A stretch of DNA of 35,010 bases. It comes from a virus. The stretch's first letter is position 1. Every line of letters starts with the position of its first letter. A program made the position numbers and the translations under genes. This document shows positions 4,281 through 34,790 of the stretch, piece by piece. The notes beneath the pieces were generated by a model that did no database searches, was not told the origin of the DNA, and was given only the letters and a program-made list of their open reading frames with translations. The stretch is taken from the IMG/VR virus record IMGVR_UViG_3300032268_001377, positions 1-35,010 of that record. One strand, 5' to 3'.

Positions 4281-4390
4281 CGCCCTACCGACGACACGAG
4301 GCCGAGGAGCGCCGCCGGGACCAGTTCGAGGCGCTGTGCCACACTCTGACGCTGCTGGCGCTGGCGGGACTGGCGTGGTGGCTGTCGTGA
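4277..4390 (+). CDS. 37-residue single-membrane-segment protein
   Basis: A short frame coupled at both ends: its ATG at 4277 overlaps the methyltransferase stop (ATGA), and its own stop overlaps the next GTG. The protein has a charged N-terminus (YRRHEAEERRRDQFEAL) and a hydrophobic C-terminal stretch (TLTLLALAGLAWWLS) that would make one short membrane segment. Function unknown. Its presence is supported by this tight coupling, since removing it would leave a gap in an otherwise gapless operon. Confidence 0.6.
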   Translation: MTPYRRHEAEERRRDQFEALCHTLTLLALAGLAWWLS

Positions 4391-4680
4391 GGGTGCTCGA
4401 GTTGCTTGGGGCCGCGCTGCCCTTCACGGAGACGGCGCGTCGCGAGCGGTGCGCACGCCGCGTCACTGACGCACTCGCGGTGCTGCTGGTGACGCGTGGA
4501 CGCGTGGCGGTGCCAGGGCTCGGTGTCTTCGTGGTGAAGACGCGCAAAACCCGGCGCATCACCAACCCGCAGACGGGCGAGTTGATGACGCTGCCGAAGT
4601 CCGTGGAGGTTCGGTTCCGCGCGGCGAAGTCACTGAAGGACGAGTTGCGCAGCACTGGGTGGGCTGGGAGGTCGCCATGA
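4387..4680 (+). CDS. HU/IHF-like DNA-bending protein
   Basis: A 97-residue protein resembling HU/IHF. Residues 38-88 follow the family pattern: RVAVPGLGVFVV corresponds to the HU strand with VxGFGxF, NPQTGE (60-65) is the diagnostic arm motif with the intercalating proline, and RFRAAKSLKDEL matches the HU ending. The N-terminal helices (ETARRERCARRVTDALAVLL) are divergent, so dimerisation may differ. It could compact phage DNA or assist at the origin or in packaging. The start is GTG 4387, overlapping the preceding stop (GTGA). Confidence 0.8.
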   Translation: MRVLELLGAALPFTETARRERCARRVTDALAVLLVTRGRVAVPGLGVFVVKTRKTRRITNPQTGELMTLPKSVEVRFRAAKSLKDELRSTGWAGRSP

Positions 4681-5421: not shown

Positions 5422-5609
5422 CGTCCGACCGACACGGCTACGCCCCATGCGGGCGCTGCGGTACACTGCGGCCGGTAGCGCACCTGGTGACGCTGGTGGA
5501 CGCGCTGTCGCACACTGTCCTCGTGCGCGTCGAGTGCGCGGACGCAGGGTTTTGTAGTCGCGCGGCGGGCGTGGGGAAGGGCGAGATGCCGAAGGAGACG
5601 ACGACGTGA
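5418..5609 (+). CDS. Small cysteine-motif (possible zinc-ribbon) protein
   Basis: A 63-residue protein with CGRCG near the N-terminus (APCGRCGTLRPV) and two more cysteines, at VECADAGFCSR. The C-x2-C … C-x6-C arrangement could bind one zinc ion. It shares a GGAGG-type ribosome site and ATGA coupling with its neighbours. Function unknown; a regulatory or nucleic-acid-binding role is only a guess. Confidence 0.6.
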   Translation: MTSDRHGYAPCGRCGTLRPVAHLVTLVDALSHTVLVRVECADAGFCSRAAGVGKGEMPKETTT

Positions 5610-5851
5610 GCCGCGCTCACATCGAACGCAGCGAGTACGCCGTCGAGGCCGCAAGAGAGCGCGCGAAAGACAAGCTTCGCGTGCTGCAGTTGGTGCTGGT
5701 GCACTGGGCAGAAGGCCTCTCGTCGTCGGTGTCGGCCGAGCGGCTCGAGATGCGCGCGGTGACGGTGCGGAAGTACCGCTCCTTCCTTGGGCTACGCTGG
5801 AACACGCGCGACGTAGGCGCGGGACTGAGACGGGAGTCGAGCGATGTCTGA
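5606..5851 (+). CDS. Small HTH-like protein preceding terminase
   Basis: An 81-residue protein starting with GTG 5606 (overlapping the previous stop, GTGA). Residues about 24-60 (VLQLVLVHWAEGLSSSVSAE … MRAVTVRKYRSFLGL) have the helix-turn-helix feel of sigma-like or Trp-repressor-like small phage proteins, with a basic recognition-like helix VRKYRSF. Its 3' end overlaps the terminase small subunit start by 8 bases. A late-gene regulator is an attractive idea from its position, but no family can be named. Confidence 0.6.
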   Translation: MSRAHIERSEYAVEAARERAKDKLRVLQLVLVHWAEGLSSSVSAERLEMRAVTVRKYRSFLGLRWNTRDVGAGLRRESSDV

Positions 5852-6275: not shown

Positions 6276-7691
6276 GTGCCGGCGCGCATTCATCCAGCGC
6301 AGGCGCCAGGGCTCCCGCGCGACTCGCTCCTTGCGCGCGCCATCGCGGCCGTCGGCGTCGATGCCTTCCTTCGCGAGGTGCAGTCACGGCCTGATGTCGC
6401 GGCGCTGCCCTTCGCGTGGGAGCTACACGCGCGGCCCGAGCAACTGCCCCCGCCCGGCGCGTGGACGTGGTGGCTGCTGTCGGGCGGGCGCGGCAGCGGG
6501 AAGACACGCAGCGGCGCGGAGATGGTGCGCGTGTGGGCGAAGCGCAGCGACGCGCGCATCGGCATCCTCGGCAAGACGCCCGACGACGTGCGGCGCGACT
6601 TGCTCGACGGGCCGTCCGGCCTCATGGCCATCACGCCGCCCGAGGAGCGGCCGACGTTCGCCGCGTCGGTGTCGGGTGGCGAGCTGACGTGGCCGTCGGG
6701 CGCCAAGGCCTTCCTGTTGTCGGGCGCGCACCCCGCGGGCATCCGCGGCGTCAACCTCACGCACGCGTGGGTCGACGAGTTGCCGCACTTCAAGTACCCG
6801 CGGCTGGCGTGGGACAACCTCAACTTCGCGCTGCGACTCGGCACGCACGTGCAGGGCGTCATCACCACGACGCCACTGGCCATCAAGCTGATGCACGAGC
6901 TGATGCAGCGGGGCGACCTCATCTACAGCCGCGCGTCGACGTACGCGAACAAGGCGAACCTCGCGGCGAACTTCTTCACCGAAGTCATCGCGAAGTACGA
7001 GGGAACGCGCTTTGGCCGACAGGAGATTCACGGCGAGCTGCTCGAGGACGTGCCGGGTGCGCTGTGGAAGGCGGGAGAGTTCCGCTACGCGTGCGTCGAG
7101 GCCTCGGCGTGCAGTCGCGTTGTGGTGGCCATCGACCCAGCGACGACGGACGGCGAGGACAGCGACGAGACGGGCATCGTGGCGGCGGGACAACTCAAGC
7201 CGGCACCGGGAGAGCCGCCGACGGCTGCGCGCTACGCCGTGCTGGGCGATGCGTCGTTGCAGGGCAGTCCCTCGGAGTGGGCGCGCGCCGCCATCGCGCT
7301 CTACGACGCCGTGGGCGCGCAGGCCTTCGTCGTCGAAACGAACCAGGGCGGGCAGATGGTGGCCCACACGTTGCGCATGGAGTGGCAGGCGCTGGGGCGG
7401 CCGGGACTCCCCCTCGTGCACGAGGTGCGCGCGTCGAAGGGCAAGCGCGCGCGGGCGGAGCCGGTCGCTGCGCTGTACGAGCAAGGCCGCGTGACGCACG
7501 TGCCGGGACTCGAGGGGCTTGAGGACCAGCTGACGGGGTGGAGCGCGAAGTCAGGCGAGGCGTCGCCCGACAGACTCGACGCGCTGGTGTGGGGACTCAC
7601 CGAGTTGTCGACGATGCCGGACTCGGGCGACGTGCCGACGGAGCCGACCGCCCCGACGCACGCGCCGCCGTTGCGACGGATGAGGATGTAG
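6276..7691 (+). CDS. Terminase large subunit
   Basis: A 471-residue packaging motor. The ATPase domain has Walker A GGRGSGKT (70-77), Walker B THAWVDE (162-168) and a coupling motif ITTTP (196-200). The C-terminal nuclease domain begins with VVVAIDPATTDGEDSDETG, where Asp287 would be the first RNase-H-like catalytic acid, and ends with SPDRLDALVWGLTEL, supplying a later aspartate. It translocates DNA into the prohead through the portal and cuts the concatemer. GTG 6276 is the first start after the small subunit stop. No typical cos site was identified, so the cutting mode (cos or headful) is unknown. Confidence 0.95.
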   Translation: MPARIHPAQAPGLPRDSLLARAIAAVGVDAFLREVQSRPDVAALPFAWELHARPEQLPPPGAWTWWLLSGGRGSGKTRSGAEMVRVWAKRSDARIGILGKTPDDVRRDLLDGPSGLMAITPPEERPTFAASVSGGELTWPSGAKAFLLSGAHPAGIRGVNLTHAWVDELPHFKYPRLAWDNLNFALRLGTHVQGVITTTPLAIKLMHELMQRGDLIYSRASTYANKANLAANFFTEVIAKYEGTRFGRQEIHGELLEDVPGALWKAGEFRYACVEASACSRVVVAIDPATTDGEDSDETGIVAAGQLKPAPGEPPTAARYAVLGDASLQGSPSEWARAAIALYDAVGAQAFVVETNQGGQMVAHTLRMEWQALGRPGLPLVHEVRASKGKRARAEPVAALYEQGRVTHVPGLEGLEDQLTGWSAKSGEASPDRLDALVWGLTELSTMPDSGDVPTEPTAPTHAPPLRRMRM

Positions 7692-7695: not shown

Positions 7696-7734
7696 GGTGT
7701 TGAGGCGTAGCAGGCCCGCACGCACCGTGCGCGC
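7696..7734 (+). promoter_or_regulatory. Copy 1 of a repeated 39-nt upstream element (18-bp exact repeat)
   Basis: The intergenic DNA between terminase and portal begins with GGTGTTGAGGCGTAGCAG (7696-7713). The same 18 bases recur at 24907-24924. In both places ACCGT follows after exactly 10 bases, and a start codon begins exactly 39 bases from the element's first base (GTG 7735 here). No Shine-Dalgarno precedes this start, and an in-frame TAG lies inside the repeat, so translation cannot begin further upstream. Read as a promoter, TTGAGG and CACCGT are 17 bp apart and would put the transcript start near the start codon. Possible roles are a late promoter giving leaderless mRNA, a translation signal, or a recombination joint. 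Confidence 0.55.
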
Positions 7735-9993
7735 GTGGGCCTCCTCGCCACTATCGGGCAACGCCTTGGCCTGACGCGGCCCTCCGTCGTCGCGTCTGCC
7801 ACCGTCGAGGGACAGGTGGTGACGCCAACGCGCGGCACCGAGGGCACCACCAATTGGAACGGGCGCATCCTCGCCGAGCGCAACGCGGCGCTGCGGGACG
7901 AGCTCGGCTACGGCCGGGCCGGCAGTCAGGAGTGGGGCGAGTGGGAGGAGATTCGGCGCACCAACCCCTTCGTGGCGGCGAGCATCGAGTTCGTCCTCGC
8001 GCCGCTGGGCGAGGCGCGGCTCGACGTCGAGGCGGCCGAGGCGCACCCCAACCCGGGCCTGGCGAAGGCGCAGGCCGACTTCGTGCGGTGGAACCTCGAA
8101 CTGCTCGAGATGCCGCTCCGCACGCGCGCCGCCGACGGCATGCTGACGGCGGGCTTCTCGCTGTTCGAGCACCCGTGGGCGCGCACGCCGCGGCCCGAGG
8201 TGCCGGGCGGGGCATTTTTTATCCCGGCCCTTGAAGAGCGCTCGCCGTCGTCGCTGTCGGCTAATCCGTGGTTGGAAGACGAGACGGGGCGCCTGTACGC
8301 CGTGAAGCAATCGGCGCCTGCGCCGGGTGGTGGCGGGTGGTTCTCCGGCGAGATGCCGGTCGAGCAGTTGCTGCGCTTCACGTGGCAGCAGGCCGGGCGC
8401 AACTACCAGGGCTTCAGCGCGTTCCGGCCCGCTTGGTATATCGCGGGGCGGGTGCAGCCGGAGTTGCTGCGCCTCATCGGCGTGACGTACCAGCGCGAGG
8501 GAGCGGGTGTTCCGGTGGCGTCAGCTGTCGACCCGAAGACGCCGCTGGGCATTCCCGAGCGCGAAAAGCTGCACGAGTTGCTGGCCAACCTCGTGTACCA
8601 CGAGAACGCGAGCGCGGTGCTTCCGGCTGGCTGGAAGTTGGACTGGATTTTCTCCCCAGGCGCCAACAAGGGCCACGTGCTCGAGGCGTGGCAGCAACTG
8701 GGCACCGTCGTGCTTCAGCAGGTGGGCGCACAGCAACTGGCCCTCGGCACGGGCGACACGGGTAGCCGCAGCGTGGGCGAGGTGCACGACGCGCGGGCGA
8801 TGGCCTTCGTGCGCAAGGTGGCCGCGGTGCTTCACGCCGGCATGGACGAGCTGACGAGGAAACTCGTTGACGCCAACTGGGGCCCGCAGGTGGTGTACCC
8901 CAAGGCGAAGTTGACGTTGCGCCGGCCGGAACTCGACCCGAAGACGCGCGCGGAGGCGACCAATATCGCAAAGGCCGCGGGCGTCTTCACACCTACGCTG
9001 AAGGACGAAAACCAGATGCGCGAGGAACTGGGGTTCTCGCCCATCACCGAGGCCGAGCGCGCCGCAGCCCCGCCCGTCGTTGCGCCGCCCGTGGGACAGC
9101 CGCCCGTGGGACAGCCGCCCTTCCGCGCTTCGCACGAGGCCGCGTGCGCGTGTGGTGCGTGCGAGACGCCAACGCTGCGTGCCGCCGTCGCGTGGCAGCC
9201 GTGGCGTCCACTGCGCGCGTCGGAGTCGCGAACGGACTGGACGCGCATCGACGAGTACCTGTCGACGCGGCGGGACGCCTTTGAGCGCCAGGTGCGGCCC
9301 ATCGTCGTGGAGATGCTGGCGCGCGCGGCCGGTGACATCACGCGCGCCATGGCAGACGGCAACCCGTCAGAGGTGGCCGAGCTGTCCCTCGACACCTCGA
9401 GACTCGAAACGGCCCTTGAGTCCTTTCTCGGTGACGTGCGCGAGACGGGCGGGCGCATGGCCCGCAGCGAATTGCGCCGCGACACGTCGGAGGAGTTGGC
9501 CGAGGCGCGACGGCTGACGGCGGCGGCCGAGGAAGACGACAGGCTTGCCGACGAGGCCGAAGACGACGCCGACGAGGTGATTGAGGCGCAGCAGCGCGCG
9601 CTGGTGCGGCGCATGACGTCGCGCTTGCGCACCGAGTTGGAGGCCGAGGCGCTCGACGTGCTGCGCACTGGGGGCGATGCCTCGCAGGTGGTGTCGCGCG
9701 TGCTGACGCGGCAACTTGAGACGGGCGCCTTCCGCAGCGACGCGGGCGCCGTCGTGACGCGCATCTTCAACGTCGGCCGAGATGAGGCCGCGCGCATCGT
9801 CGGCGGCGTGCAGGCCGTCGAATACTCGGCGCTGTTGGACACGCGCGTGTGTGAGCCGTGTCGCCGCATGGACGGGCGCCGCGCGCGTTTCGGCAGTGCC
9901 GAGCACGACGCCATGCTTCCACCCAACCGCGACTGCGACGGCGGCGCCAACTGTCGCTGTCTCGTCGTGTACGTGCCCGGAGGTGATGAATGA
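7735..9993 (+). CDS. Portal protein (DUF935-like) fused to MuF-type minor head protein
   Basis: A 752-residue two-domain protein. Residues about 1-440 resemble Mu gp29-like (DUF935) portals: RRTNPFVAASIEFVLAPLG, FTWQQAGRNYQGFSAFRPA and TGDTGSRSVGEVHDARAMAF are typical. A proline linker with the duplicated unit PVGQP (about 447-457) leads to a C-terminal domain ending in the MuF/SPP1 gp7 signature: YSALLDTRVCEPCRRMDG … PPNRDCDGGANCRCLVVYV, with paired cysteines. The portal is the DNA channel and the MuF part is a minor head protein that may enter the capsid or be ejected. In Mu these are separate genes (29 and 30). GTG 7735 is the first start after an in-frame TAG at 7708 and has no Shine-Dalgarno. 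Confidence 0.88.
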   Translation: MGLLATIGQRLGLTRPSVVASATVEGQVVTPTRGTEGTTNWNGRILAERNAALRDELGYGRAGSQEWGEWEEIRRTNPFVAASIEFVLAPLGEARLDVEAAEAHPNPGLAKAQADFVRWNLELLEMPLRTRAADGMLTAGFSLFEHPWARTPRPEVPGGAFFIPALEERSPSSLSANPWLEDETGRLYAVKQSAPAPGGGGWFSGEMPVEQLLRFTWQQAGRNYQGFSAFRPAWYIAGRVQPELLRLIGVTYQREGAGVPVASAVDPKTPLGIPEREKLHELLANLVYHENASAVLPAGWKLDWIFSPGANKGHVLEAWQQLGTVVLQQVGAQQLALGTGDTGSRSVGEVHDARAMAFVRKVAAVLHAGMDELTRKLVDANWGPQVVYPKAKLTLRRPELDPKTRAEATNIAKAAGVFTPTLKDENQMREELGFSPITEAERAAAPPVVAPPVGQPPVGQPPFRASHEAACACGACETPTLRAAVAWQPWRPLRASESRTDWTRIDEYLSTRRDAFERQVRPIVVEMLARAAGDITRAMADGNPSEVAELSLDTSRLETALESFLGDVRETGGRMARSELRRDTSEELAEARRLTAAAEEDDRLADEAEDDADEVIEAQQRALVRRMTSRLRTELEAEALDVLRTGGDASQVVSRVLTRQLETGAFRSDAGAVVTRIFNVGRDEAARIVGGVQAVEYSALLDTRVCEPCRRMDGRRARFGSAEHDAMLPPNRDCDGGANCRCLVVYVPGGDE

Positions 9994-11087
9994 CGACGAC
10001 GCTTCGAGGCGCATCGGCATCGCTGCGTGCGCAGGCCACCGAGTCGAAGGCGTGGAACCTCATCTTCCCGCGCGGGGAGTGGCACGGGCCCAACCTCGGC
10101 GCTATCGGCGGAAGCATCGACATCGACGACGCCATGTTGCGCGAGATGGTGGCCAACTGGGAGTCGGCCGGGCGGCCTGGGCTGCCGGTGCGGGTGACGC
10201 ACGCGCACCTCGACGAGGCGGACCCGGTGAAGCGGCTTGAGCTCGAGCGCGCCGTCGGCCTCCTCACCGACATGCGCGTCACCGCCGACGGCCTCGAGGT
10301 GCTGACGGAGTGGGCGCCCGCTGGTGTCGAGGCGGTGCGCAGCGGCGCGTGGAATTTCTGGAGCCCCGAGTGGCAGCCGCAGCACCGCGACAGGCGCACA
10401 GGCGAGGCGCGCGGGTGGTGGCTGTCAGGCGTCGCCCTCACCAACGACCCTTTCTTTCACTCGATGCCGGCCGTGGCCGCGTCGACGGCACTCCCGCCGG
10501 GCAGTCCCACGGGCACCCCACACAAGGAGCAGCTCATGTCGTACGCGAAGATCGCCGCTGCCCTCGGCATGCCCGAGGACAGCACCGAAGAGGCCATCGT
10601 GGCCGAGTGCATGAAAATGAAGGGCGGCATGCAGCAGATGCAGCCGCCTGGGATGATGCAGGCGTCGGTTCGGGCCGAGGTGTCCAAGGCTGTCGAGCCG
10701 CTGCAGGCGTCGCTGAGGGCAGCCAACGAGAAGGCCGCGGCCCTCGAGGCGGCGCTGTTCCAGCGCGACGTGGACGGCGTCATCGAAGCGGCGAAGGCTG
10801 AAGGTTTCGCGTGCGAGCCAATGCGCGAGGCCATCCAGCTGGTGGCGTCGGCGAAGGGCCTCGAGGCCGCGAAGACGCTGGCGCAGTCGGCGCCAAAGCT
10901 GGCGATGAAGTCGGCCGGTGTCAGCACCGAGAAGAAGCTGACGGCGTCCGCCGAGGAGTACTCGGTCGCCCTCAACGAGCACGAGAAGAAGACGGGGCTG
11001 AAGGGTCGCGAGGCCATCCAGTCCTTCCACCGCGCCAACCCCGAGATGGCCAAGGCGATGGTCGCCTCCATCCCCACCAACCGCTGA
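9990..11087 (+). CDS. Prohead maturation protease with C-terminal scaffold domain (Mu I-like)
   Basis: A 365-residue protein. Residues 20-160 match the Mu gpI-type protease layout: WNLIFPRGEWHGPN, the GLPVRVTHAHLDEADP segment with candidate catalytic histidines, and the WNFWSPEWQPQH … GVALTNDPFFHSMPA block seen in phage I-like proteases. Residues 183-365 form a separate Met/Gln-rich then helical region typical of scaffolds (VSKAVEPLQASLRAANEKAA), ending in RANPEMAKAMVASIP. Proteolysis would remove scaffold during head expansion. ATG 9990 overlaps the portal stop (ATGA). An internal start at 10536 with a strong ribosome site would give the scaffold alone. Confidence 0.85.
   Translation: MTTTLRGASASLRAQATESKAWNLIFPRGEWHGPNLGAIGGSIDIDDAMLREMVANWESAGRPGLPVRVTHAHLDEADPVKRLELERAVGLLTDMRVTADGLEVLTEWAPAGVEAVRSGAWNFWSPEWQPQHRDRRTGEARGWWLSGVALTNDPFFHSMPAVAASTALPPGSPTGTPHKEQLMSYAKIAAALGMPEDSTEEAIVAECMKMKGGMQQMQPPGMMQASVRAEVSKAVEPLQASLRAANEKAAALEAALFQRDVDGVIEAAKAEGFACEPMREAIQLVASAKGLEAAKTLAQSAPKLAMKSAGVSTEKKLTASAEEYSVALNEHEKKTGLKGREAIQSFHRANPEMAKAMVASIPTNR
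10536..11087 (+). CDS. Nested in-frame capsid scaffold protein
   Basis: An in-frame ATG at 10536 inside the protease gene is preceded by AAGGAG (10524-10529) at 6-base spacing, a better ribosome site than that of most genes here. It would produce a 183-residue protein beginning MSYAKIAAALGMPED, exactly at the junction between protease and scaffold regions. The same arrangement is known in lambda C/Nu3 and Mu I/Z, where the internal product is the assembly scaffold. The predicted product is helical and charged. The ribosome site is seen directly; expression and role are inferred from those phages. Confidence 0.68.
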   Translation: MSYAKIAAALGMPEDSTEEAIVAECMKMKGGMQQMQPPGMMQASVRAEVSKAVEPLQASLRAANEKAAALEAALFQRDVDGVIEAAKAEGFACEPMREAIQLVASAKGLEAAKTLAQSAPKLAMKSAGVSTEKKLTASAEEYSVALNEHEKKTGLKGREAIQSFHRANPEMAKAMVASIPTNR

Positions 11088-11106
11088 ACGAGAGGACACA
11101 ACAACC

Positions 11107-11499
11107 ATGGCTCAGGAAAACTTTATTGGAATGGCCCCGCTGGCCCGCGTCGCGGGCGGCACCATCCTCCGCGGACAGGGGCTCGTCATCAACTCGTCGG
11201 GCGCCGTCGTCGCGTCCACCGCCATCACCGAGGCCATCGCGGGCGTCGCCCTCGACGATGCCGCCTCAGGCGCGCAGTGTCTTTTCATGCCGTCGGGGCC
11301 TGTCGTCACGGCCATCGGAGGCGCGGCCATCACCGTCGGTGCGCAGGTGATGCCGCAGGCCACTGGCCCCGGGAAGTTCGTCACGGCGGCCGGCGCGACG
11401 TCCCTCTCGTGCGGCATCGCCCTCAGCAACCCAGGTGCGGACAACGGCCTCTTCGAGCTGCTCCTCGTCCCCACCCTGCGCAGCGCCGCCAACACCTAA
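11107..11499 (+). CDS. Capsid decoration (cement) protein, DUF2190-like
   Basis: A 130-residue, Gly/Ala-rich beta-type protein between protease and major capsid gene, the standard place for the head decoration protein. The features GQGLVINSSGAVVASTAITE, AIAGVALDDAASG, VTAIGGAAITVGAQVMPQA and CGIALSNPGADNGLFELLL match DUF2190-type proteins (lambda D-like role), which trimerise on the capsid surface and stabilise it after expansion. A purine-rich AGAGGA (11091-11096) precedes ATG 11107. The family call is by pattern and neighbourhood. Confidence 0.78.
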   Translation: MAQENFIGMAPLARVAGGTILRGQGLVINSSGAVVASTAITEAIAGVALDDAASGAQCLFMPSGPVVTAIGGAAITVGAQVMPQATGPGKFVTAAGATSLSCGIALSNPGADNGLFELLLVPTLRSAANT

Positions 11500-11523
11500 C
11501 CCAACCATCAAGGAGACACTGCA

Positions 11524-12501
11524 ATGGCTCTCAACCCGAGCGAGTTCAAGACTCGCACCCCGCTGGACAACATCAGCTTCAAAATCATCAACTCCAAGGA
11601 GGACTTCGTCGCCGACCGGATTTTCACGCCCGTCTACACGGACGAGAAAGACATCTTCCAGGTGTACCAGTACGACGCGCGGCACCTCCGAAACATCTCG
11701 AGCGCCTCCAGCTCGAAGGCCGAGGCCAACCGCGTCGACTGGGGCGTCTTCAAGCGCAGCTACGACTCGGTGCTGCACAAGCTGAAGACCGACGTCGACC
11801 CGCGCGACTCGAAGACGTTCGACCCCGCCGTCGCGGACGTTCGCGTCGACGCGGCCGACACCATCTGGAGCCACCTGATGGTTGAGCGCGAGGTGGCGGC
11901 GACGACGCTGGCCACCACGGCGGCCAACTACCCCTCCGCGCTGACGAAGTCGCTGGTGGATGGTACCTCGACGTTCACCTCGGCCACTGGGAACGTGGAG
12001 TCCGAAGCCTCCATTGCCCACGCGGCCCTGCGCGCTGCGTGCGGCAAGCGCGCCAACGCCGCCGTTATCTCGGCGACCGGTTTCGAGCGCATCCGCGCCG
12101 CGCCGTCCGTTGTCAGCCGCATCCAGTACGTCGAAGGCAGCAAGGCGACGGAGTCGCAGGTCGCCAACCTCCTCGGCGTGCAGGAGCTGATCATCGCGGG
12201 CGCGTCCGTCAACAGCGCCCTCGAGGGTGCGGCCGCGTCGCTGGCCGACATCTGGCCGGACGACATCCTCTTCTTCGTGAAGGAGGCGTCGTCCAACAAG
12301 CGTTCGATGCGGTACGGCGCCTGGTACGTGCGGAACGAGATCTACACGCACGAGGCCGAGGACCCGAAGCGTGGCAGCGCGGACGGCCGCGTGTCCGAGC
12401 TCGAGATGGGCTGGGAGTACGTGCTCGCCCCTGGCGCCACCGTGTCTGCGTCCGACGGTGACTTTATCGCCGGCTACCTCCTCAAGAACATCATCGGCTG
12501 A
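11524..12501 (+). CDS. Major capsid protein
   Basis: A 325-residue protein with the position, length and composition of an HK97-fold major capsid protein lacking a long N-terminal scaffold arm, as expected when scaffold is encoded separately. Notable segments are FVADRIFTPVYTDEKDIFQV, SSKAEANRVDWGVFKRSYDS, MVEREVAATTLATTAANYP and a C-terminal SKRSMRYGAWYVRNEIY preceded by DILFFVKEAS. It forms the icosahedral shell. The ribosome site AAGGAG (11511-11516) is strong, as expected for the most abundant protein. A related MCP family of the same fold cannot be separated by eye. Confidence 0.86.
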   Translation: MALNPSEFKTRTPLDNISFKIINSKEDFVADRIFTPVYTDEKDIFQVYQYDARHLRNISSASSSKAEANRVDWGVFKRSYDSVLHKLKTDVDPRDSKTFDPAVADVRVDAADTIWSHLMVEREVAATTLATTAANYPSALTKSLVDGTSTFTSATGNVESEASIAHAALRAACGKRANAAVISATGFERIRAAPSVVSRIQYVEGSKATESQVANLLGVQELIIAGASVNSALEGAAASLADIWPDDILFFVKEASSNKRSMRYGAWYVRNEIYTHEAEDPKRGSADGRVSELEMGWEYVLAPGATVSASDGDFIAGYLLKNIIG

Positions 12502-12513
12502 TTCGGAGGCATC

Positions 12514-12792
12514 ATGCCCAAGTACGTCGTCATCCACGGCAGCCTTTCCCTCCCCGGGAAGCCCCTGCCGCCCCCGCACGAGCGGGTGACTCCCGAGCCC
12601 ATCAAGGTGGGCCTCGGCGAGTCCGTCGAACTGACGGAGGCACAGGCCAAGCAGCTGGTGGCCGACGGTTTCCTCACCGACGAAAAGAAGTTCGCCGCGC
12701 TGAAGAAGACGCTCGACGCGGCTGAGGAGTCCGGCACCCCTCTGCCCAAGGCCATGGAGAAGCTCGCCCGCGGCCTGAAGGCGAGGGGGTAA
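12514..12792 (+). CDS. Hypothetical protein between capsid and connector genes (92 aa)
   Basis: A 92-residue protein whose N-terminal half is beta-like (YVVIHGSLSLPGKPL), followed by VELTEAQAKQLVADGFLTDEK and a lysine-rich helix (AMEKLARGLKARG). Such small proteins after the capsid gene are frequent in phages and often act at the head-tail interface, but no function is established. ATG 12514 follows GGAGG (12504-12508). Confidence 0.7.
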   Translation: MPKYVVIHGSLSLPGKPLPPPHERVTPEPIKVGLGESVELTEAQAKQLVADGFLTDEKKFAALKKTLDAAEESGTPLPKAMEKLARGLKARG

Positions 12793-12795
12793 CCC

Positions 12796-13281
12796 ATGCC
12801 TGCGACGTTCGGCGTCACGCCTGACTCCGTGCGTCGCCATCGCTTCCCCCACCTCGACAATTTCGGCCCCAACACGGTGCCGGCGCTGTCGACGGTGGAG
12901 GAGGCGGTGGGCCGGGCGTCTGCGCGCCTGGCTGGCAAGCTGTTGCTGGAAGCCATCGTCCCCGAGGACATCACCGACGCCACGTCAGCGGCGTACCTGT
13001 GGTGTCAGGAGACGCTGGAGTTGATGGTGGCCGTGCGCGTCGCCGAGGCCGCCACGCACAAGGACTACGAGTTGCTGCGCGTGTGGCGCAGCGAAGTCGA
13101 CGCGCGCTTCGCCGAGTTGGCCGAGGGCGGCGCGGACGCACTGGGCGGTGGCGCGACGTCGGCGGGAGACTCCCCGCCCGACGGGCCCACGACGCACATC
13201 AGCCAGTACCGACTCACCACCGACTCGGCGACGAACATGTCCACCACCATCCCCCGCCTGCGGAAAGACGACGCCCTGTGA
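12796..13281 (+). CDS. Head-tail connector / head completion protein candidate
   Basis: A 161-residue helical protein in the slot usually held by the adaptor that plugs the portal after packaging. It has TPDSVRRHRFPHLDNFG, then several helices (STVEEAVGRASARLAGKLLL; ETLELMVAVRVAEAATHKDY), a Gly/Ala/Asp-rich linker and a short C-terminal strand (THISQYRLTTDS). The helical bundle is consistent with gp6/gp15-like adaptors, but the call rests mainly on gene order. Its stop overlaps the next start (GTGA). Confidence 0.6.
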   Translation: MPATFGVTPDSVRRHRFPHLDNFGPNTVPALSTVEEAVGRASARLAGKLLLEAIVPEDITDATSAAYLWCQETLELMVAVRVAEAATHKDYELLRVWRSEVDARFAELAEGGADALGGGATSAGDSPPDGPTTHISQYRLTTDSATNMSTTIPRLRKDDAL

Positions 13282-13823
13282 CTGCCGTCGCCATCACGCT
13301 GGAGTACCAGGTGGGCAACGCCTCGGGCGAACAGCAGCTCGAGCGGCTCGCCGTGGCCTTCGAGCGCGCGGGCGCCGAGACGGCCAACTTCGGCAAGCAC
13401 ATCTTCCCCGAGTTGGTGCCCGTCCTCGAAGCAGGCGCGAAGGCGCAGTTCGACGCCGAGGGCGCGGGGCCGGTGGCCGGGGCGTGGGCGCAGTTGTCGG
13501 CGTCCTACGCCGCGTTTAAGGAGGACGCGTACCCCGGGCAGCCGCTCCTCGTCGCAACGGGCGCGCTGCGTGACGCCCTCACCATCGAAGGCAGCCCGCA
13601 CGCATTGCGCGACTACAGCGACGCGCAGTTCAACTACGGCACGCAGGGGCTCGACTACGCCTCGTTTCACCAGACGGGCACGGCACGCATGCCGCCGCGT
13701 CCACCGTTCGACTTCGGGCCGGATTTCGACAGGCAACTTCAGCGTGCCGCCGCGCAGGGCGTGCGCAATGCGGTGCGTGAGTCGGGGCTCGACGAGTTCG
13801 CCGACATGAAGGGGGACGAGTGA
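13278..13823 (+). CDS. Phage virion morphogenesis / tail completion protein (Mu gpG-like)
   Basis: A 181-residue protein. The pattern YPGQPLLVATGALRDALTIE, followed by YASFHQTGTARMPPRPPFDF, is characteristic of Mu gpG / P2 gpS-type virion morphogenesis proteins (LxxTGxLxxS … HQ.G…MPxRPF). These act in joining or completing the tail. The N-terminal part (TLEYQVGNASGEQQLERLAVAF) is helical. The start is GTG 13278, coupled to the upstream stop. A longer upstream frame exists but is not coding-like. Confidence 0.8.
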   Translation: MTAVAITLEYQVGNASGEQQLERLAVAFERAGAETANFGKHIFPELVPVLEAGAKAQFDAEGAGPVAGAWAQLSASYAAFKEDAYPGQPLLVATGALRDALTIEGSPHALRDYSDAQFNYGTQGLDYASFHQTGTARMPPRPPFDFGPDFDRQLQRAAAQGVRNAVRESGLDEFADMKGDE

Positions 13824-13824
13824 C

Positions 13825-14604
13825 ATGCCCGGCCTGACGCCCAGCTCGCCGCCCAACGCCAGCGCTACGGTGCGCGGCCTCGTCTCGACGCTGGCGCAGA
13901 CGTTCGCCGGCGTGAAGACGTTCCTCGCCCGCGCGGTGTTCCAGCTCGGCATCACCGCTGGCCTCGCTCGGCTCGATCTCCGTTCCGACCTCGGCGCGAA
14001 CGCGTCCGACGTGTGCGGCGTCGTCGGGTCGACCGTGGCGGACGGGTCGGTCAACGCGGCGGCGCGGCTCTTCTCGGTGCGAACGGGGCTCGGTGGGACT
14101 GAGGTCGAGAAGATCTGGATCGACAAGCAAGGCGACTTTCGGGCCGGAGCGGCCACGTTCGGGCTGTTCCGCGGCGCGTCAGCCTCTCTCGGCTTTGTTT
14201 CTGTCGATGATTCGCTTGGTGCTCAGATGCGGTTCGGGGCTATTCGATGGGTTCTCGACAACGGAAGCGCCACGCTGACCGACACGGCTGTGCTTGGGAA
14301 CCTTGTACGGTTTGAGCAAAACGGGCGGCAATCTCATCTAGGCACCGACTCGACCGGCACGCCCGGCGCAGCAACCATCAACCGCCCCACGGGGAAAAGC
14401 GCCATCGCGGCGGGGGCGTCGTCGGTCGTCATCACGAACTCGCTGGTCACGGCGGCCTCACGCGTGATCATCACCCCGCACGCCCGCGACGCGACGTGCA
14501 AGGAACTCATCGCCGTTCCGGGCGCGGGAATCATCACTGTGTCAGGCACCGCCAACGCGACCGCCGCGCTTCCGTTCAGCTGGGAAGTCTCGAACATCAT
14601 CTGA
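13825..14604 (+). CDS. Beta-rich fibre-like virion protein
   Basis: A 259-residue protein that looks like a phage appendage protein. The N-terminus (ATVRGLVSTLAQTFAGVKTF) resembles the repeat-like starts of fibre shafts. The middle is Gly/Ala-rich with alternating strands (GDFRAGAATFGLFRG), and the last 70 residues (SSVVITNSLVTAASRVIITP … GIITVSGTANATAALPFSWE) match the beta C-terminal domain common in tail-fibre or receptor-binding proteins. Its place between head-completion and tail-terminator genes is unusual for a fibre. A neck or head fibre is possible. Codons at 14180-14340 are less GC-biased than their surroundings. Confidence 0.68.
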   Translation: MPGLTPSSPPNASATVRGLVSTLAQTFAGVKTFLARAVFQLGITAGLARLDLRSDLGANASDVCGVVGSTVADGSVNAAARLFSVRTGLGGTEVEKIWIDKQGDFRAGAATFGLFRGASASLGFVSVDDSLGAQMRFGAIRWVLDNGSATLTDTAVLGNLVRFEQNGRQSHLGTDSTGTPGAATINRPTGKSAIAAGASSVVITNSLVTAASRVIITPHARDATCKELIAVPGAGIITVSGTANATAALPFSWEVSNII

Positions 14605-14612
14605 GGTGACAC

Positions 14613-14858
14613 ATGCCGACGCCCCGCCAGTGGTTCCGAGACGCACTCGCCGACTTCCGCGCCAGCCGCACGGGCAACCAGCGCCGCCAGCGGATTCGCG
14701 ACGACGTGGCCGCCCTCATCAACGCCGCGCAGGACTGGCAGGCTCGGTTCGACGCGCAGGAGAACGCGGCCGCGCGTGCCTTCGCTGACGATCGACCCGG
14801 ACAGTTCAACACGTTCGTCGACACCCTTTCGCCTGTCGAACCCGACCAGACGCCCTGA
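14613..14858 (+). CDS. Small hypothetical tail-region protein (81 aa)
   Basis: An 81-residue, Arg/Gln/Ala-rich helical protein (WFRDALADFRASRTGNQRRQ; DDVAALINAAQDWQARFDAQ) with an acidic proline-containing tail. ATG 14613 follows GAGGTGA (14603-14609). No family is recognised. Its placement beside the fibre-like gene suggests a chaperone or structural partner, without direct evidence. Confidence 0.6.
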   Translation: MPTPRQWFRDALADFRASRTGNQRRQRIRDDVAALINAAQDWQARFDAQENAAARAFADDRPGQFNTFVDTLSPVEPDQTP

Positions 14859-14861
14859 CGC

Positions 14862-16256
14862 ATGGCTGACGCGCGCTCCACCCTCGTGCTGGACTCCACC
14901 GGCGCCCCGCTGACGACGGCGACGCCGTCCTTCGTCGACTACCGCGACAGGGCGGGCAGCGCGCGCACGCCACCGGCCGCACCGTCGCATCTCGGCGGCG
15001 GCGTCTGGGCCTTCACGCCGTCGGACGCAGACGAGACGGCGGGCACCGTCGCCCTCGTCGACTTCGGGGCCGGTGCCGAGCCGCGCCGCGTGACGTGGGG
15101 CCTGCACCTGCCGGACGGCAGCAACCAGTTCTGGGCCGTGCACATCGAGGACGAGGCGGGCGCGCTGTGGACGGGCGCTGCGCCGACGGCGGGCGTGTAC
15201 GACGACAGCGCGGGCAGTCCACGCACGCCGCCGTCGCTGGCCGTCGTGTCGGGCGCATACCTCTTCGCGCTGACGCCCACGTCGGCCGATGTCGCGGCGG
15301 GCATCGAGGGGCGGCTCGACGGGCCCGCAGGCAGCAACCAGCCGTACTGGGCCTTCTCCTCGGTGCCGCTCGTCGAGGGTGGTGGCGCGCCGTTGCCGCT
15401 CGCCCCGTCGGTGGGCGTGCAGCCGACGCGGCTGGCGGCCAGCGCGCTCCGGGACTACCTCCTGCGCTACCTCCCCGCGAAGGTGACGCAACTCAACGCC
15501 CTGCGCGGCGCGGTGCTGAAGTCGCCCGCCGTCGGGCCGTGGAACATCTCCAGCGGCAGCCTCGCCCTCGCCACAGCCCGGGAGGGGGCGGTGACGACGG
15601 TGACGCTGCCGACGGGGGCGGCCGTCACGGCGGCGCAGGTGGTCACGGCCATCAACGCGGCGCCCGTCCCTGGCCTCACCGCGTCGGCCGACGGCGACGG
15701 GCGTCTCGTCCTCACGGCGGCCGCGCCCACGGAGGGCGTGCAGTCGGTGGCGCGCGTGACGGCGGGCGCGTCCAATGCCCTCTTCGGCTGGCCACAGGAA
15801 GGCGCGTACGAGACGACGACGGCCCTCACGGCCCCGACACACAAGGGTGTCCTCGACGGCTGGCCGGTGTCGTTGCCGGACATGGGGCGGACGTTCGCCG
15901 TCATCATCGGCGACAGGGACGCCGTGCCACTGGGCGGCGTGCGTCGGGATGAGCACACCGTCACCCTCGACGTGGCCGTGTGGGTGGCCGACAGGGCCGC
16001 CGGCGGACACCGCAGCCGCGAGACGCTGGAGTCGTGCGCGCGTGCCGTGCACGAGTTGCTGACGTCGGACGACGGCCGCACCCTCGGGCGTGCGCGCGTC
16101 GGCGACGTCATCCACACCGACGTCACCCGCATGCGCATCAAGGGCATGCCGTTCCAGGCGTTCGACGAGTCCAAGCGGCCCGTCGGAGGGCCCACCGAAG
16201 TCGCGTCACTCACCGTCACCGTCAAGGTGTTTCACCGCCCCAGCATCACCCCGTGA
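14862..16256 (+). CDS. Tail terminator-like protein with duplicated N-terminal beta domain
   Basis: A 464-residue composite protein. Residues about 1-95 and 95-185 are an internal duplication: DYRDRAGSARTPP … VWAFTPSDADETAGTVALVD, then YDDSAGSPRTPP … YLFALTPTSADVAAGIEGRL, each ending near a GSNQFW/GSNQPYW segment. Residues about 205-330 hold another beta region (NALRGAVLKSP; TTVTLPTGAAVTAAQVVTAI). The C-terminal third (PDMGRTFAVIIGDRDAVPLG … LDVAVWVADRAAGG … VASLTVTVKVFHRPS) fits the fold and location of tail terminator proteins that cap the tail tube. Terminators are usually 120-170 residues, so the extra domains are unusual and may decorate the neck. Confidence 0.6.
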   Translation: MADARSTLVLDSTGAPLTTATPSFVDYRDRAGSARTPPAAPSHLGGGVWAFTPSDADETAGTVALVDFGAGAEPRRVTWGLHLPDGSNQFWAVHIEDEAGALWTGAAPTAGVYDDSAGSPRTPPSLAVVSGAYLFALTPTSADVAAGIEGRLDGPAGSNQPYWAFSSVPLVEGGGAPLPLAPSVGVQPTRLAASALRDYLLRYLPAKVTQLNALRGAVLKSPAVGPWNISSGSLALATAREGAVTTVTLPTGAAVTAAQVVTAINAAPVPGLTASADGDGRLVLTAAAPTEGVQSVARVTAGASNALFGWPQEGAYETTTALTAPTHKGVLDGWPVSLPDMGRTFAVIIGDRDAVPLGGVRRDEHTVTLDVAVWVADRAAGGHRSRETLESCARAVHELLTSDDGRTLGRARVGDVIHTDVTRMRIKGMPFQAFDESKRPVGGPTEVASLTVTVKVFHRPSITP

Positions 16257-16264
16257 GGTAGCCA

Positions 16265-17446
16265 ATGGCCATCGTCCCCATCCGCGCGTATGACTCTCGC
16301 GTCCTCGCCCGCCTCGAAACGACGTTCGGCACGTCGCCGGACCCAGCCGCCGCGCAGGCCCTCGAGGTGGTGGCCGTCAACATGGGCCCCGTCGAGGCCG
16401 GCGTCATCCGCCCGAAGCGCGACCGGGCGCTGGGCCGCGGCGCACAGAACGACTTCGTGGAGGGGCGCGTCGAGCTCATCCCGTGGAGCCTCGAGACGTC
16501 GCTGAAGGGCCGAGCAGCCGTCGACACGGTGCCGGCCGAAGACGCGCTGTACCGGGCGGCGGGGCTGGCGCGTACCGTCAACGCGGGCACGTCGGTGGTG
16601 TATGCGACGGCGGGCGAGCCCAACCCCCTCCTCTCGGGCCTCACGCTCGAGCGCGTGCGCGGCGGCTCGACGCAGCTGGGCGCGCAGTCGGCCGAGCGCG
16701 GGTTCGGCGGGGCCGTCGAGCGCCTGACGTGGAAGGGCGGCGACACTGAGGCGGGCCTCATGGCCTCGGGCCGCTTCGTCGGGAAGGAACTGCGCGGCAA
16801 GCTGGACTCCATCACGCTGGCCAACGGCACGGTGACGTCCCTCACCATCACGGCCGAGGAGTCGTACCGGCTGGGCCTGGGCTTCTACCTGTGCGAGTCG
16901 GAGGCCATTCAAGTGACGGCGGTGACGCCGGGCGGGACGTCGGCCACCATCGTGCGCGGCGTTCTCTCGACGACGGCCGCAGCCCACACGGCGCAGCCGC
17001 TGGTGCCCTTCGTGCCGGCCGTCAGCAACCCCACGGGCCGGCCGCTGCCCGAGTCGACGTCCACCGTCACCGTCGACGGCGTCGCGCTGCGCATGCAGTC
17101 GTGGGAGGTGGCCTTCGCCACGGGCATCAGCCACCTGCCGGGCGAGACGGGCAACCGGCGCGTGCAGGGCCTGAAGGCGACGCGGTACAACGTCGAGTTG
17201 TCGATGCGCGGCGTCCTCTACGAGGACTATGAGTCCTTCCGCGGGCGCAGCACGGCGCGGCGCAACTGCCCCGTCACCATCGTGCAGGGCACGGGCGCGG
17301 GGCGCATCCTGACGCTGTCGATGCCCTTCACGGAAGTCATCGCGCCGGACTCGGCGGACTCGGCGGACGACGTCGCGCTGGTCGACCTCTCATTCCGCGT
17401 GCGCGACAACGCGGGCAACGACTCCCTCTCTCTCACCCTTACCTGA
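16265..17446 (+). CDS. Major tail (tube) protein
   Basis: A 393-residue beta-rich protein just upstream of the chaperone and tape-measure genes, the usual slot for the tail tube protein. The repeated structure ALGRGAQNDFVEGRVELIPW, RLTWKGGDTEAGLMASGRFV, MQSWEVAFATGISHLPGETG and LKATRYNVELSMRGVLYEDY resembles phage tail tube proteins with an N-terminal and a C-terminal tube-like barrel. It would polymerise as stacked rings around the tape measure. ATG 16265 follows GAGGTA. Confidence 0.83.
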   Translation: MAIVPIRAYDSRVLARLETTFGTSPDPAAAQALEVVAVNMGPVEAGVIRPKRDRALGRGAQNDFVEGRVELIPWSLETSLKGRAAVDTVPAEDALYRAAGLARTVNAGTSVVYATAGEPNPLLSGLTLERVRGGSTQLGAQSAERGFGGAVERLTWKGGDTEAGLMASGRFVGKELRGKLDSITLANGTVTSLTITAEESYRLGLGFYLCESEAIQVTAVTPGGTSATIVRGVLSTTAAAHTAQPLVPFVPAVSNPTGRPLPESTSTVTVDGVALRMQSWEVAFATGISHLPGETGNRRVQGLKATRYNVELSMRGVLYEDYESFRGRSTARRNCPVTIVQGTGAGRILTLSMPFTEVIAPDSADSADDVALVDLSFRVRDNAGNDSLSLTLT

Positions 17447-17453
17447 GGCGCAC

Positions 17454-17894
17454 ATGCTGACGCTGACGCAGTGGGACAGGTACGAGCTGGACATCGGCAA
17501 CAACCGCGAGCTGCCCAAGCCTGAGCGCGTCTTCCTCGAGGTGGAGCGCGGCTTGTCGGTGCGCCAGCGCGAGGCCTTCTCGAAAGCCCTGGGCGAGGCG
17601 TTGGGTGTGTTGGGTGTCGACGACGACGCCCTTCACAAGCTGGCCGCCGTGCTGTCGATGCACCTTCGCTGGGGCGGCGTGCCGCTGCGCTGGGAGGGCG
17701 GCGAAGTGACGACGCTGGAGGGCTACGTCCGGTTGGTGTTCGTCGAGCTGGCGCTGAGTCGGTACACACAGGAGCTGCTGCGCCTCGTGTACCGCGCCAA
17801 CAGCTGGGACTCGGAGGCGGCCCAGCTTTTCGAGCGGCCCTCTGGTACGGCGCTTGGTACCGGGACGACGGGCCTTCCTCCGCCGACGGTGTGA
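17454..17894 (+). CDS. Tail assembly chaperone (lambda G-like)
   Basis: A 146-residue, largely helical, acidic protein located between the tube and tape-measure genes. Segments such as TQWDRYELDIGNNRELPKPE, REAFSKALGEALGVLGVDDD and LEGYVRLVFVELALSRYTQE fit a G-like chaperone that coats the tape measure before tube assembly. The C-terminal 20 residues become Gly/Thr/Pro-rich. The next gene lies in the -1 frame with a 4-base overlap, the geometry in which many phages make a frameshifted G-GT fusion. Confidence 0.68.
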   Translation: MLTLTQWDRYELDIGNNRELPKPERVFLEVERGLSVRQREAFSKALGEALGVLGVDDDALHKLAAVLSMHLRWGGVPLRWEGGEVTTLEGYVRLVFVELALSRYTQELLRLVYRANSWDSEAAQLFERPSGTALGTGTTGLPPPTV

Positions 17895-18217
17895 CGTGGC
17901 GGCCGAGCGCGAAGTGGCGGTTCGACGCGGAACAAGGGTGGCTGGGCCGACGCCCGCCGCCTCGGCAGGGGCTTCCCGCGCAGCCGCTGCACAAGGACGT
18001 GCGCGTCGACATCGAGCGGGCCTTCGTCGTGTCGGAGCCGGCACTCCGGGTGTGGGGTGTGTCCGTGGCGACTGATGCCCCGCTGTACTCGGGCGGCGTC
18101 CTCGACGCGTGGCCGGCGTGGGTGGTGGATGTGCTGAAGGTGGCGAGGCCGGAGATGGAGTGCATCAAGGCCTTCCTCTCGTGGGAGGCGACGCAGCGCG
18201 GAGGCGGACATGGCTGA
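17891..18217 (+). CDS. Second tail assembly chaperone (lambda T-like)
   Basis: A 108-residue protein beginning at GTG 17891, overlapping the previous stop (GTGA) and lying in the -1 frame relative to it. It starts with a Trp-rich region (TWRPSAKWRFDAEQGWLGRR) and ends in a helix before the tape-measure start. The -1 frame stays open well upstream of the GTG and contains a Trp/Tyr-rich stretch (ALWYGAWYRDDGPSS), suggesting translation may enter by ribosomal frameshifting instead of, or as well as, the GTG. No canonical slippery heptamer was found. Role inferred from position. Confidence 0.62.
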   Translation: MTWRPSAKWRFDAEQGWLGRRPPPRQGLPAQPLHKDVRVDIERAFVVSEPALRVWGVSVATDAPLYSGGVLDAWPAWVVDVLKVARPEMECIKAFLSWEATQRGGGHG

Positions 18218-22893: not shown

Positions 22894-22895
22894 CG

Positions 22896-23915: not shown

Positions 23916-23916
23916 C

Positions 23917-24477
23917 ATGGCGTACGCGAAGCCGGTGTTGGTGTGCCAGGACATGCCCATCACCTTCCAGCAGGCGAACCTCGCGCAGCAGAACCTGCAG
24001 GAGTGCTGGCTTCAGCTGACGCTGCGTCACGGTTGGGAGGAGTCGCTTCAGTTCCCGCCTGCGCCGGGCCTTCCGAGCGGTGCCAGCATTAACCCTCCAC
24101 GACTCACGCGACGGTACGGGCAACACAACGACGTCCGTATTCCGCGCGTCGTCGTGAGGGTGCAGGGCGCAGCCATCGGGAGTACCTTCGCCAGCGTCGT
24201 CGGTGCGAGCGGGGAGCCAGGCATCCTCGGGGCGCCTGTCCGGCTGTCGACGGGCGTGTTCGACTTCCCGGTTTTGGGGTTGTCCGAGTTCTACGCGGAG
24301 GCGACGCCCTTCGGCACCTCGGCCGGCGCGCAGCGCATCGTCACGCCGACCAGCATCTTCCCGTCCCAGGGCCGGGCCGTGCTGCGGTTCGAGCTCTACC
24401 AGCAAGACTCAGGTGGCGTGGGCGCGTTCCTGCCGGCCGAGTTCGACTTCACCGCGGCCGTCTACGGCGCGCCCTGA
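23917..24477 (+). CDS. Virion/tail tip protein
   Basis: A 186-residue protein following the fibre-like gene by one base after its stop. It contains DMPITFQQANLAQQNLQECW and alternating hydrophobic strands (RIPRVVVRVQGAAIG; AVLRFELYQQDSGGVGAFLP; FDFTAAVYG). It looks like a small structural or fibre-associated protein. Its last 16 bases are shared with the antisense lipoprotein gene. Function unknown. Confidence 0.63.
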   Translation: MAYAKPVLVCQDMPITFQQANLAQQNLQECWLQLTLRHGWEESLQFPPAPGLPSGASINPPRLTRRYGQHNDVRIPRVVVRVQGAAIGSTFASVVGASGEPGILGAPVRLSTGVFDFPVLGLSEFYAEATPFGTSAGAQRIVTPTSIFPSQGRAVLRFELYQQDSGGVGAFLPAEFDFTAAVYGAP

Positions 24478-24887
24478 GTCGGGCGGCACTGGTAAAAGGG
24501 CGGAGCCGAGGGCGTGACTTGGCCGGAGTCACAGGCTGCGTTGGCGAGACACGTCACGCAGTAGCCCTGGTTCAGCCCGGGCTCGGGAGGACAAAGGCTC
24601 GAGGAGAACGGGGAAGGTTGCCCGGCTCGAGGCATCGAGACGCACCGCCCCTCCGAGTCGCAGCATCCGCTGTTACACTGGCACTTCGGCCGGCAAGCGC
24701 CAGAGGCGCACACCGCGCCGGTTGCGCACGTCGTGCACATCGCGCCGGCCGTGCCGCACTCGGCCGGCGTGTTGCCGGCGACGCAGGTGCCGCGCTCGGA
24801 GCAACACCCGGAGCAGTTTGAGGGGTCGCAGGTCGATCCACAACCCAAGGAGGCAACGGACACCGCCAACGCAAGGAGGAAGCGCAT
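24462..24887 (-). CDS. Cysteine-rich lipoprotein, probable lysogenic-conversion (moron) gene
   Basis: A 141-residue protein on the strand opposite to all surrounding late genes. It starts with a lipoprotein-like signal (MRFLLALAVSVASLGC, lipid attachment predicted at Cys16, with an atypical Ser at -3) and has 21 cysteines. CSGCCSERGTCVAGNTPAEC and CNSGCCDSEGRCV are CCxxxGxC modules resembling those of myxobacterial cell-surface lipoproteins. It would be exported and anchored to a membrane, stabilised by disulfides. Opposite orientation, its own upstream region and no obvious virion role make it a candidate gene expressed from the prophage to change the host surface, for example receptor masking. 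Function is not known. Confidence 0.78.
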   Translation of the reverse strand: MRFLLALAVSVASLGCGSTCDPSNCSGCCSERGTCVAGNTPAECGTAGAMCTTCATGAVCASGACRPKCQCNSGCCDSEGRCVSMPRAGQPSPFSSSLCPPEPGLNQGYCVTCLANAACDSGQVTPSAPPFYQCRPTQGAP

Positions 24888-24906
24888 GCCTTACTCTACA
24901 CCCAGA

Positions 24907-24945
24907 GGTGTTGAGGCGTAGCAGCGCGACCCCCACCGTCCCGTC
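24907..24945 (+). promoter_or_regulatory. Copy 2 of the repeated 39-nt upstream element
   Basis: The exact 18-base sequence GGTGTTGAGGCGTAGCAG (24907-24924) reappears, followed after 10 bases by ACCGT (24935-24939), and ATG 24946 starts 39 bases from its first base, the same geometry as at 7696-7734. Again no Shine-Dalgarno precedes the start. The element lies between the minus-strand lipoprotein and the plus-strand lysis-region genes, so it could restart late transcription interrupted by the inserted lipoprotein gene. The bases outside the 18-mer and ACCGT differ between copies, arguing that the shared parts are selected rather than a recent duplication. Confidence 0.55.
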
Positions 24946-25173
24946 ATGTCCGACCCACGCAACCTCGACGACGTGGAGGCCCGTGTCCGTCTACTCGAGG
25001 CCCGCGCTGCCGACGTCGACGCCCGCGTTGCGGAGCTGACTCGAGGCCTCGCTGCGCTGTCGACGCAGGTGACCCGTCTTTCCGACGTCGCCACCACCCA
25101 GACGTACTCGCTCGAGCGCATCGAGCGCACCCTGCGGCAACTCGTCGAGGCCGTGACGAAGCGAGGCGCGTAA
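24946..25173 (+). CDS. Small coiled-coil protein (75 aa)
   Basis: A 75-residue protein that is almost entirely a heptad-patterned helix: NLDDVEARVRLLEARAADVD and RVAELTRGLAALSTQVTRLS have a/d hydrophobic positions and would form a parallel coiled coil. No membrane segment. It is coupled to the next gene (TAATG). With the following two genes it may belong to lysis, but it could also be a structural spacer. It has no Shine-Dalgarno and carries the repeated upstream element. Confidence 0.65.
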   Translation: MSDPRNLDDVEARVRLLEARAADVDARVAELTRGLAALSTQVTRLSDVATTQTYSLERIERTLRQLVEAVTKRGA

Positions 25174-26472: not shown

Positions 26473-26700
26473 ATGACGACACCTCGCAGCGGCTGGGCCT
26501 CGACGAAGCTCCACCTCGCGTGCATCGCCATCGCGGTGCTCACCTTCGTCTTCGTCTTCGTCGTGCACGTCGCCGGGACGGCGGCAGGCTTCGGCGAGTA
26601 CTGCATCGCCATCGTCACCGTCGTGGCGTCGGCGCACGGCAGCCGCGTCGCGGAGTCGTTTGCCGCTCGGCGACCCAGCCTCCCACCATCGGAGAAATGA
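26473..26700 (+). CDS. Holin-like small membrane protein
   Basis: A 75-residue protein with a strongly hydrophobic first segment (LACIAIAVLTFVFVFVVHVA, residues 15-34) and a second one (YCIAIVTVVASAHG, about 43-56), followed by a basic, soluble tail (SRVAESFAARRPSLPPSEK). Size and two-segment topology fit a class II holin that would permeabilise the inner membrane at the end of infection. Its ATG directly follows the previous stop codon. Context supports a lysis role; the family is unassigned. Confidence 0.62.
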   Translation: MTTPRSGWASTKLHLACIAIAVLTFVFVFVVHVAGTAAGFGEYCIAIVTVVASAHGSRVAESFAARRPSLPPSEK

Positions 26701-26704
26701 CAAC

Positions 26705-27399: not shown

Positions 27400-27400
27400 C

Positions 27401-34719: not shown

Positions 34720-34748
34720 GATATAGAACCAAAACGGTTTCACGTCAA
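34720..34748 (-). promoter_or_regulatory. Minus-strand early promoter (PL-like)
   Basis: On the minus strand, TTGACG (34748-34743) and TATATC (34725-34720) are spaced by exactly 17 bp, a good sigma70-like promoter upstream of the recombination operon (first start 34616). One operator copy (34727-34739) lies inside its spacer and the next (34750-34762) adjoins the -35, so a bound repressor would block RNA polymerase. Confidence 0.72.
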
Positions 34749-34785
34749 GAACCAAATTGGTTTGACGGGTGAAACCGAACTGTGT
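34727..34785. promoter_or_regulatory. Three operator sites in 23-bp tandem array
   Basis: Three 13-bp sites recur at exactly 23-bp steps: AACCAAAACGGTT (34727-34739), AACCAAATTGGTT (34750-34762, a perfect palindrome) and AACCGAACTGTGT (34773-34785, right half degenerate). The middle site is the exact centre (34756) of a larger dyad with arms CGGTTTCAC (34735-34743) and GTGAAACCG (34769-34777). The arrangement, three sites of graded quality between divergent promoters, resembles lambda OR/OL. The repressor itself is not identified. Confidence 0.72.
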
Positions 34786-34790
34786 ACAAC
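34762..34790 (+). promoter_or_regulatory. Plus-strand early promoter (PR-like)
   Basis: TTGACG (34762-34767) and TACAAC (34785-34790) are separated by exactly 17 bp, mirroring the minus-strand promoter about the central operator. The third operator copy lies within the spacer and first -10 base. The transcript would begin near 34797 and reach the gene at 34846. Confidence 0.65.

Follow-up and report, generated by a model that had tools for sequence, protein, structure and literature searches.

An 18-bp sequence, GGTGTTGAGGCGTAGCAG, occurs twice in the DNA of an uncultured phage, each time at the same distance from a start codon that lacks a Shine-Dalgarno (SD) sequence and opens a block of late genes. 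From the repeat, its fixed spacing, the absent SD sequences, the positions at operon heads and the retention in a relative, we infer a promoter role, late activity, recognition by a phage factor and leaderless mRNA. The chances that the two copies are the cores of two late promoters of a single phage-specific class, probably giving leaderless mRNAs, appear to us about evenly balanced. The window, i.e., the whole stretch of DNA analyzed, is a 35,010-base IMG/VR virus record with 69% G+C, in which genes were called from open reading frames and codon use.

The two copies share their geometry

The positions of the element and of the blocks associated with it are as follows:

7696..7713, plus strand: copy 1 of the 18-bp element, in the terminase–portal gap, −39 to −22 relative to GTG 7735; exact match
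24907..24924, plus strand: copy 2 of the 18-bp element, between a minus-strand gene and the gene at 24946; exact match, identical in the relative
7700..7705, plus strand: TTGAGG, putative −35-like hexamer in copy 1 if +1 is at 7735; 4/6 to TTGACA
24911..24916, plus strand: TTGAGG, putative −35-like hexamer in copy 2
7723..7728, plus strand: CACCGT, second common block of copy 1, −12 to −7; recurs at this offset in copy 2 and the relative
24934..24939, plus strand: CACCGT, second common block of copy 2

A search of both strands bore out what an earlier note on this DNA had stated, namely that the sequence is present exactly twice, each copy beginning 39 nt before a start codon; both copies lie on the plus strand. 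No third site with up to three mismatches exists in the whole sequence, the next best match (14/18) being located within coding sequence. The note had also described ACCGT 10 nt further on, followed by the start codon after another 6 nt. This motif is indeed found at 7724–7728 and 24935–24939, but the shared block is one base longer and reads CACCGT after 9 nt. When the copies are compared, 18 identical positions are thus followed by nine that are mostly unlike, by the identical CACCGT, by six that are again mostly unlike, and then by GTG (7735) or ATG (24946), a pattern more in keeping with a pair of contacts a set distance apart than with a duplication that is eroding.

The mere presence of a dispersed exact 18-mer repeat is unremarkable, as a third-order Markov model predicts 0.42 of them per window, with 24% of sequences containing one or more. 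The equal offset was evaluated with 300 dinucleotide-preserving shuffles covering the 60 nt before each of 41 predicted starts: the longest word at equal offset reached a mean of 8.1 and a maximum of 13 in the shuffles versus 18 observed, and even at any offset the longest common word in the same shuffles did not exceed 15.

Each copy heads a contiguous late gene block

The genes on either side of copy 1 and the gene following copy 2 are:

6276..7691: large terminase gene, before the portal gene
7735..9993, plus strand: portal gene (Portal_Mu, Phage_Mu_F-like C-terminus; Pfam PF06074, 8e-15), first gene of the structural block, without SD
24946..25173, plus strand: gene opening the lysis/tail block, for a SlyX/hemolysin-like coiled-coil protein of 75 aa (phrog_937, 6e-4; SlyX, 2e-4, not reaching the Pfam cut-off), without SD

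The claim that neither start has an SD sequence is confirmed by anti-SD pairing energies of −1.5 kcal/mol before 7735 and +0.4 kcal/mol before 24946, compared with −6 to −13 for most genes. All other SD-less starts adjoin the preceding gene or overlap with it, so that translation by coupling is possible there; this leaves 7735 and 24946 as the only predicted starts that are both uncoupled and devoid of an SD sequence, the combination that leaderless translation calls for. The largest gaps of the late region precede these same two starts, while plus-strand gaps do not exceed 24 nt throughout 7735–24477 and 24946–30018. Each element therefore heads one contiguous block, and these are the only two contiguous plus-strand late blocks, with the element before each of them. 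The description of the copies as marking the beginnings of the structural and the lysis-region module thus holds. In the second block, the gene at 24946 is followed by genes for a short protein, a DUF5675 protein (the phage proteins it matches bear the annotation transpeptidase) and others. A tail-region gene carries coding repeats (ACGCCGGCGCCCA...) spaced 63 nt at 29228–29509.

The element is retained in the one close relative

Searches with the element and several proteins retrieved one close relative with about 92% DNA identity. It is represented by two overlapping contigs, IMGVR_UViG_3300044631_003673 and IMGVR_UViG_3300045999_013119, which we counted as one phage because they have about 100 identical bases in common at their ends and do not differ at copy 1. 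The overlap of the contig ends suggests that the relative's genome is circular or permuted and, by the same token, the right and left ends of the 35,010-nt sequence may join. The earlier note had proposed to look for the element and its spacing in related phages and had named relatives that keep the genes and lack the element as evidence to the contrary; the one close relative keeps both copies, each at 39 nt, even though its early control region is unrelated. Two copies at two late operon heads, with the same spacing in one close relative, are what a class of late promoters would display.

Copy 2 is exact in the relative, and copy 1 carries one substitution (GGTGTTGAGCCGTAGCAG) at what would be the sixth and least conserved −35 position; a 3-bp deletion lies just upstream of it. 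Across the terminase–portal gap, one substitution was counted in 40 aligned nt as against about 15.5% at flanking third codon positions (binomial p = 0.01). No identical stretch in the alignment is longer than the one that contains copy 2 (254 nt, 24799–25052); since it includes coding sequence on both sides, the identity of copy 2 cannot be taken as a sign of constraint on the element. For the same reason, a constraint estimate of 1/98 versus 20/126 substitutions (p = 1e-4) was discarded as too generous. The identical stretch may mark a recent exchange. With only two copies and one close relative, conservation is weakly tested.

Searches with the portal, terminase, major head and activator-candidate proteins and with the protein at 25173 yielded nothing beyond this relative and very distant phages that lack the element, and no matching junction was present in distant phages whose terminase shares 31%–50% identity. 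Matches of phage records to the two gaps all had E values of at least 0.1 and were taken as chance, as was one further viral match to the element, located inside antisense coding sequence. Matches to the pattern in cellular DNA (four contigs, from Pseudomonas, Bacteroidia and Acidimicrobiia) were about as numerous as expected by chance in 257 Gb.

A minus-strand gene lies next to copy 2

One gene adjacent to copy 2 was missing from the earlier note:

24462..24887, minus strand: Cys-rich lipoprotein-like gene with a lipoprotein-like start and a third-position substitution bias versus the relative

Substitutions amount to 12.7% at minus-strand third codon positions and 2.8% at each of the other two, so we regard it as a real gene. 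It is convergent with the structural block and is probably a moron; judging by the style of the Cys-rich lipoprotein alone, the host might be guessed to belong to the Myxococcota. The start of this gene lies 19 bp left of copy 2, which consequently sits in a 58-bp gap between divergent genes. Because of this antisense gene, the block from 24946 could be a mere continuation of the structural operon only if transcription read through in antisense, and a new plus-strand promoter is therefore to be expected in the divergent intergenic region.

The late element differs from the early promoters

With +1 placed at the start codon, TTGAGG occupies −35 to −30 and CACCGT −12 to −7, separated by a 17-bp spacer. 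Support for the proposed promoter TTGAGG-17-CACCGT is divided. The hexamer positions, the location at block heads, the uncoupled SD-less starts and the retention in the relative speak for it; the agreement with the sigma-70 consensus does not, as it amounts to 6/12 (4/6 plus 2/6), a value equaled by about 1,200 plus-strand combinations of site and spacing. The poor −10 sequence CACCGT also argues against a promoter, as do the substitution in the relative's copy 1 and the 3-bp deletion just before it. It is thus position and conservation, and not a match to sigma-70, that point to a promoter.

The early promoters of the two phages, by comparison, score 9–10/12. In the window they are predicted at:

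34762..34790, plus strand: early promoter TTGACG-17-TACAAC, joint best plus-strand sigma-70 score (9/12)
34720..34748, minus strand: divergent early promoter TTGACG-17-TATATC, best minus-strand sigma-70 score (9/12)

Two operator-like palindromes, AACCAAAACGGTT (34727–34739) and AACCAAATTGGTT (34750–34762), overlap these divergent promoters, and the region 34720–34790 is probably the early/immunity switch. The early control region of the relative is unrelated, yet canonical promoters occur there as well (on the plus strand, TTGACA-17-TATACA). As both phages have canonical sigma-70 early promoters with 17-bp spacing, the late element represents a different class; the host sigma-70 seems ordinary, and the late element, with only 6/12 agreement, would need help from the phage in the form of an activator or an alternative sigma factor.

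We therefore envisage one late promoter per plus-strand late operon, serving the structural genes from 7735 and the lysis/tail genes from 24946, respectively. A factor made or modified by the phage would recognize the −39 to −22 block and make a second contact at CACCGT, RNA polymerase would be directed to start at, or a few bases from, the start codon, and the first gene of each operon would be translated from a leaderless mRNA. A stricter version, in which the factor reads the −39 to −22 block together with the G+C-rich CACCGT in place of a −10 element and sets +1 exactly on the start codon, such that leaderless mRNAs serve both the structural and the lysis operon in their entirety, strikes us as unlikely.

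A candidate for the regulator

A possible regulator is encoded upstream of the terminase genes:

5606..5851, plus strand: weak candidate for a regulator gene (81 aa), immediately preceding the small terminase gene

Residues 28–71 of its product weakly match phrog_9217 'transcriptional regulator' (E = 0.0068), a match to the GerE/LuxR helix-turn-helix is likewise weak (0.15), and the protein is 98%–99% identical in the relative. A structural model, helical and of low confidence (pLDDT 70), had no match in the PDB. As the late factor, the protein is a weak lead and not an identification. Pfam and PHROGs scans of most, though not all, of the proteins predicted in this possibly incomplete sequence revealed no activator of the C/Mor family. 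The phage also encodes an HU/IHF-like DNA-binding protein (4336–4680; PF00216, 9e-14).

Other explanations for the repeat

The copies could be remnants of mosaic junctions, i.e., a short sequence that was copied between module boundaries by recombination and has no present function. Phage modules do exchange at boundaries, copy 2 is embedded in the 254-nt identical stretch, which suggests recent exchange, and the adjacent lipoprotein-like gene looks like a moron. Such an origin would explain neither why both copies stand 39 nt from a start, nor why CACCGT matches separately beyond an unlike spacer, nor why SD sequences are absent at precisely these two uncoupled starts, and we consider it fairly improbable.

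An element that acts in translation, located in a 5′ untranslated region and bringing ribosomes, or an RNA-binding factor of the phage, to the SD-less starts, would fit the fixed distance to the start codon and the lack of SD sequences at both starts, and repeated elements linked to start codons are known from phages (PMC3203893). The start-associated sequences (SAS) described there lie at 3–7 bp and contain AGGAG, whereas the present element is 22–39 nt away, with GAGG 28 nt upstream. Furthermore, the two RNAs fold differently and, at 101 nt, no better than shuffled sequences (z = −0.16 and +0.22), and inspection of both copies revealed no shared upstream ORF, so this reading, too, is improbable. 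Three related candidates were rejected: an RNA hairpin, as copy 1 folds well and copy 2 does not; a peptide encoded by the element (VLRRS...), as neither copy, inspected by eye, shows a conserved continuation and the relative's substitution alters the peptide; and re-initiation from an 11-codon ORF with a strong SD sequence (MPYSTPRGVEA, ending at 24921), which has no counterpart at copy 1.

As a third option, the element may serve as an operator through which a phage regulator controls late transcription originating elsewhere or from undetected promoters and, at copy 2, for example, the divergent lipoprotein-like gene. The position of copy 2 between divergent genes would suit an operator and an asymmetric 18-bp site could be bound by a protein; copy 1, however, has no divergent gene next to it, yet both spacings refer to a plus-strand start, and the site is not palindromic, which makes an operator quite improbable. 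Finally, a repeat that arose by chance is conceivable for an 18-mer somewhere in the window (p ~0.24) and becomes very improbable indeed in view of the equal offset before two starts (18 versus a shuffle maximum of 13) and the retention of the element in the relative.

Comparison with known systems

The late promoters of phage P2 (Ogr/Delta) resemble the proposed late promoters in that a set of late operons shares a common activator site. The Ogr site lies near −55 and has dyad symmetry. Mycobacterial leaderless mRNAs usually have an A/T-rich −10 element, unlike the corresponding hexamer here, CACCGT. In mycobacteria, leaderless mRNAs can be translated from nothing more than a 5′-terminal ATG or GTG, and leaderless genes have been reported from P2 and lambda (PMC4633059). 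The SAS and ESAS elements of Cluster K mycobacteriophages, which occur in dozens per genome among non-structural genes (PMC3203893), are likewise short asymmetric repeats at start codons, but they contain an SD core within 3–7 bp of the start, and the present element lies 22–39 nt away.

If the late promoter reading is true, it would give a readable late-control signal to a group of uncultured phages that has no close relatives among the phage records searched, and would be an example of structural operons expressed from leaderless mRNAs. The two sites are small and lend themselves to tests, and would point the way to a new late regulator. A close parallel is offered by phage Mu, whose C-activated late promoters (lys, I, P and mom) also serve several late operons, have non-consensus −35 and −10 elements and depend on one phage activator, and the head genes described here belong to Mu-like families (Portal_Mu, Mu-like_Pro). 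Unlike in Mu, where the C site lies upstream of the −35 element or overlaps it (PMC4461284), the conserved block here extends over the −35 hexamer and the half of the spacer next to it, the start codon coincides with the presumed +1, and no homologue of Mu C is present among the proteins scanned. As the kind of control proposed follows that of known late-activator phages, the surprise is moderate. Each part has a precedent: an activator with its late promoters is known from Mu C (PMC4461284), and genes without leaders from lambda and P2 (PMC4633059).
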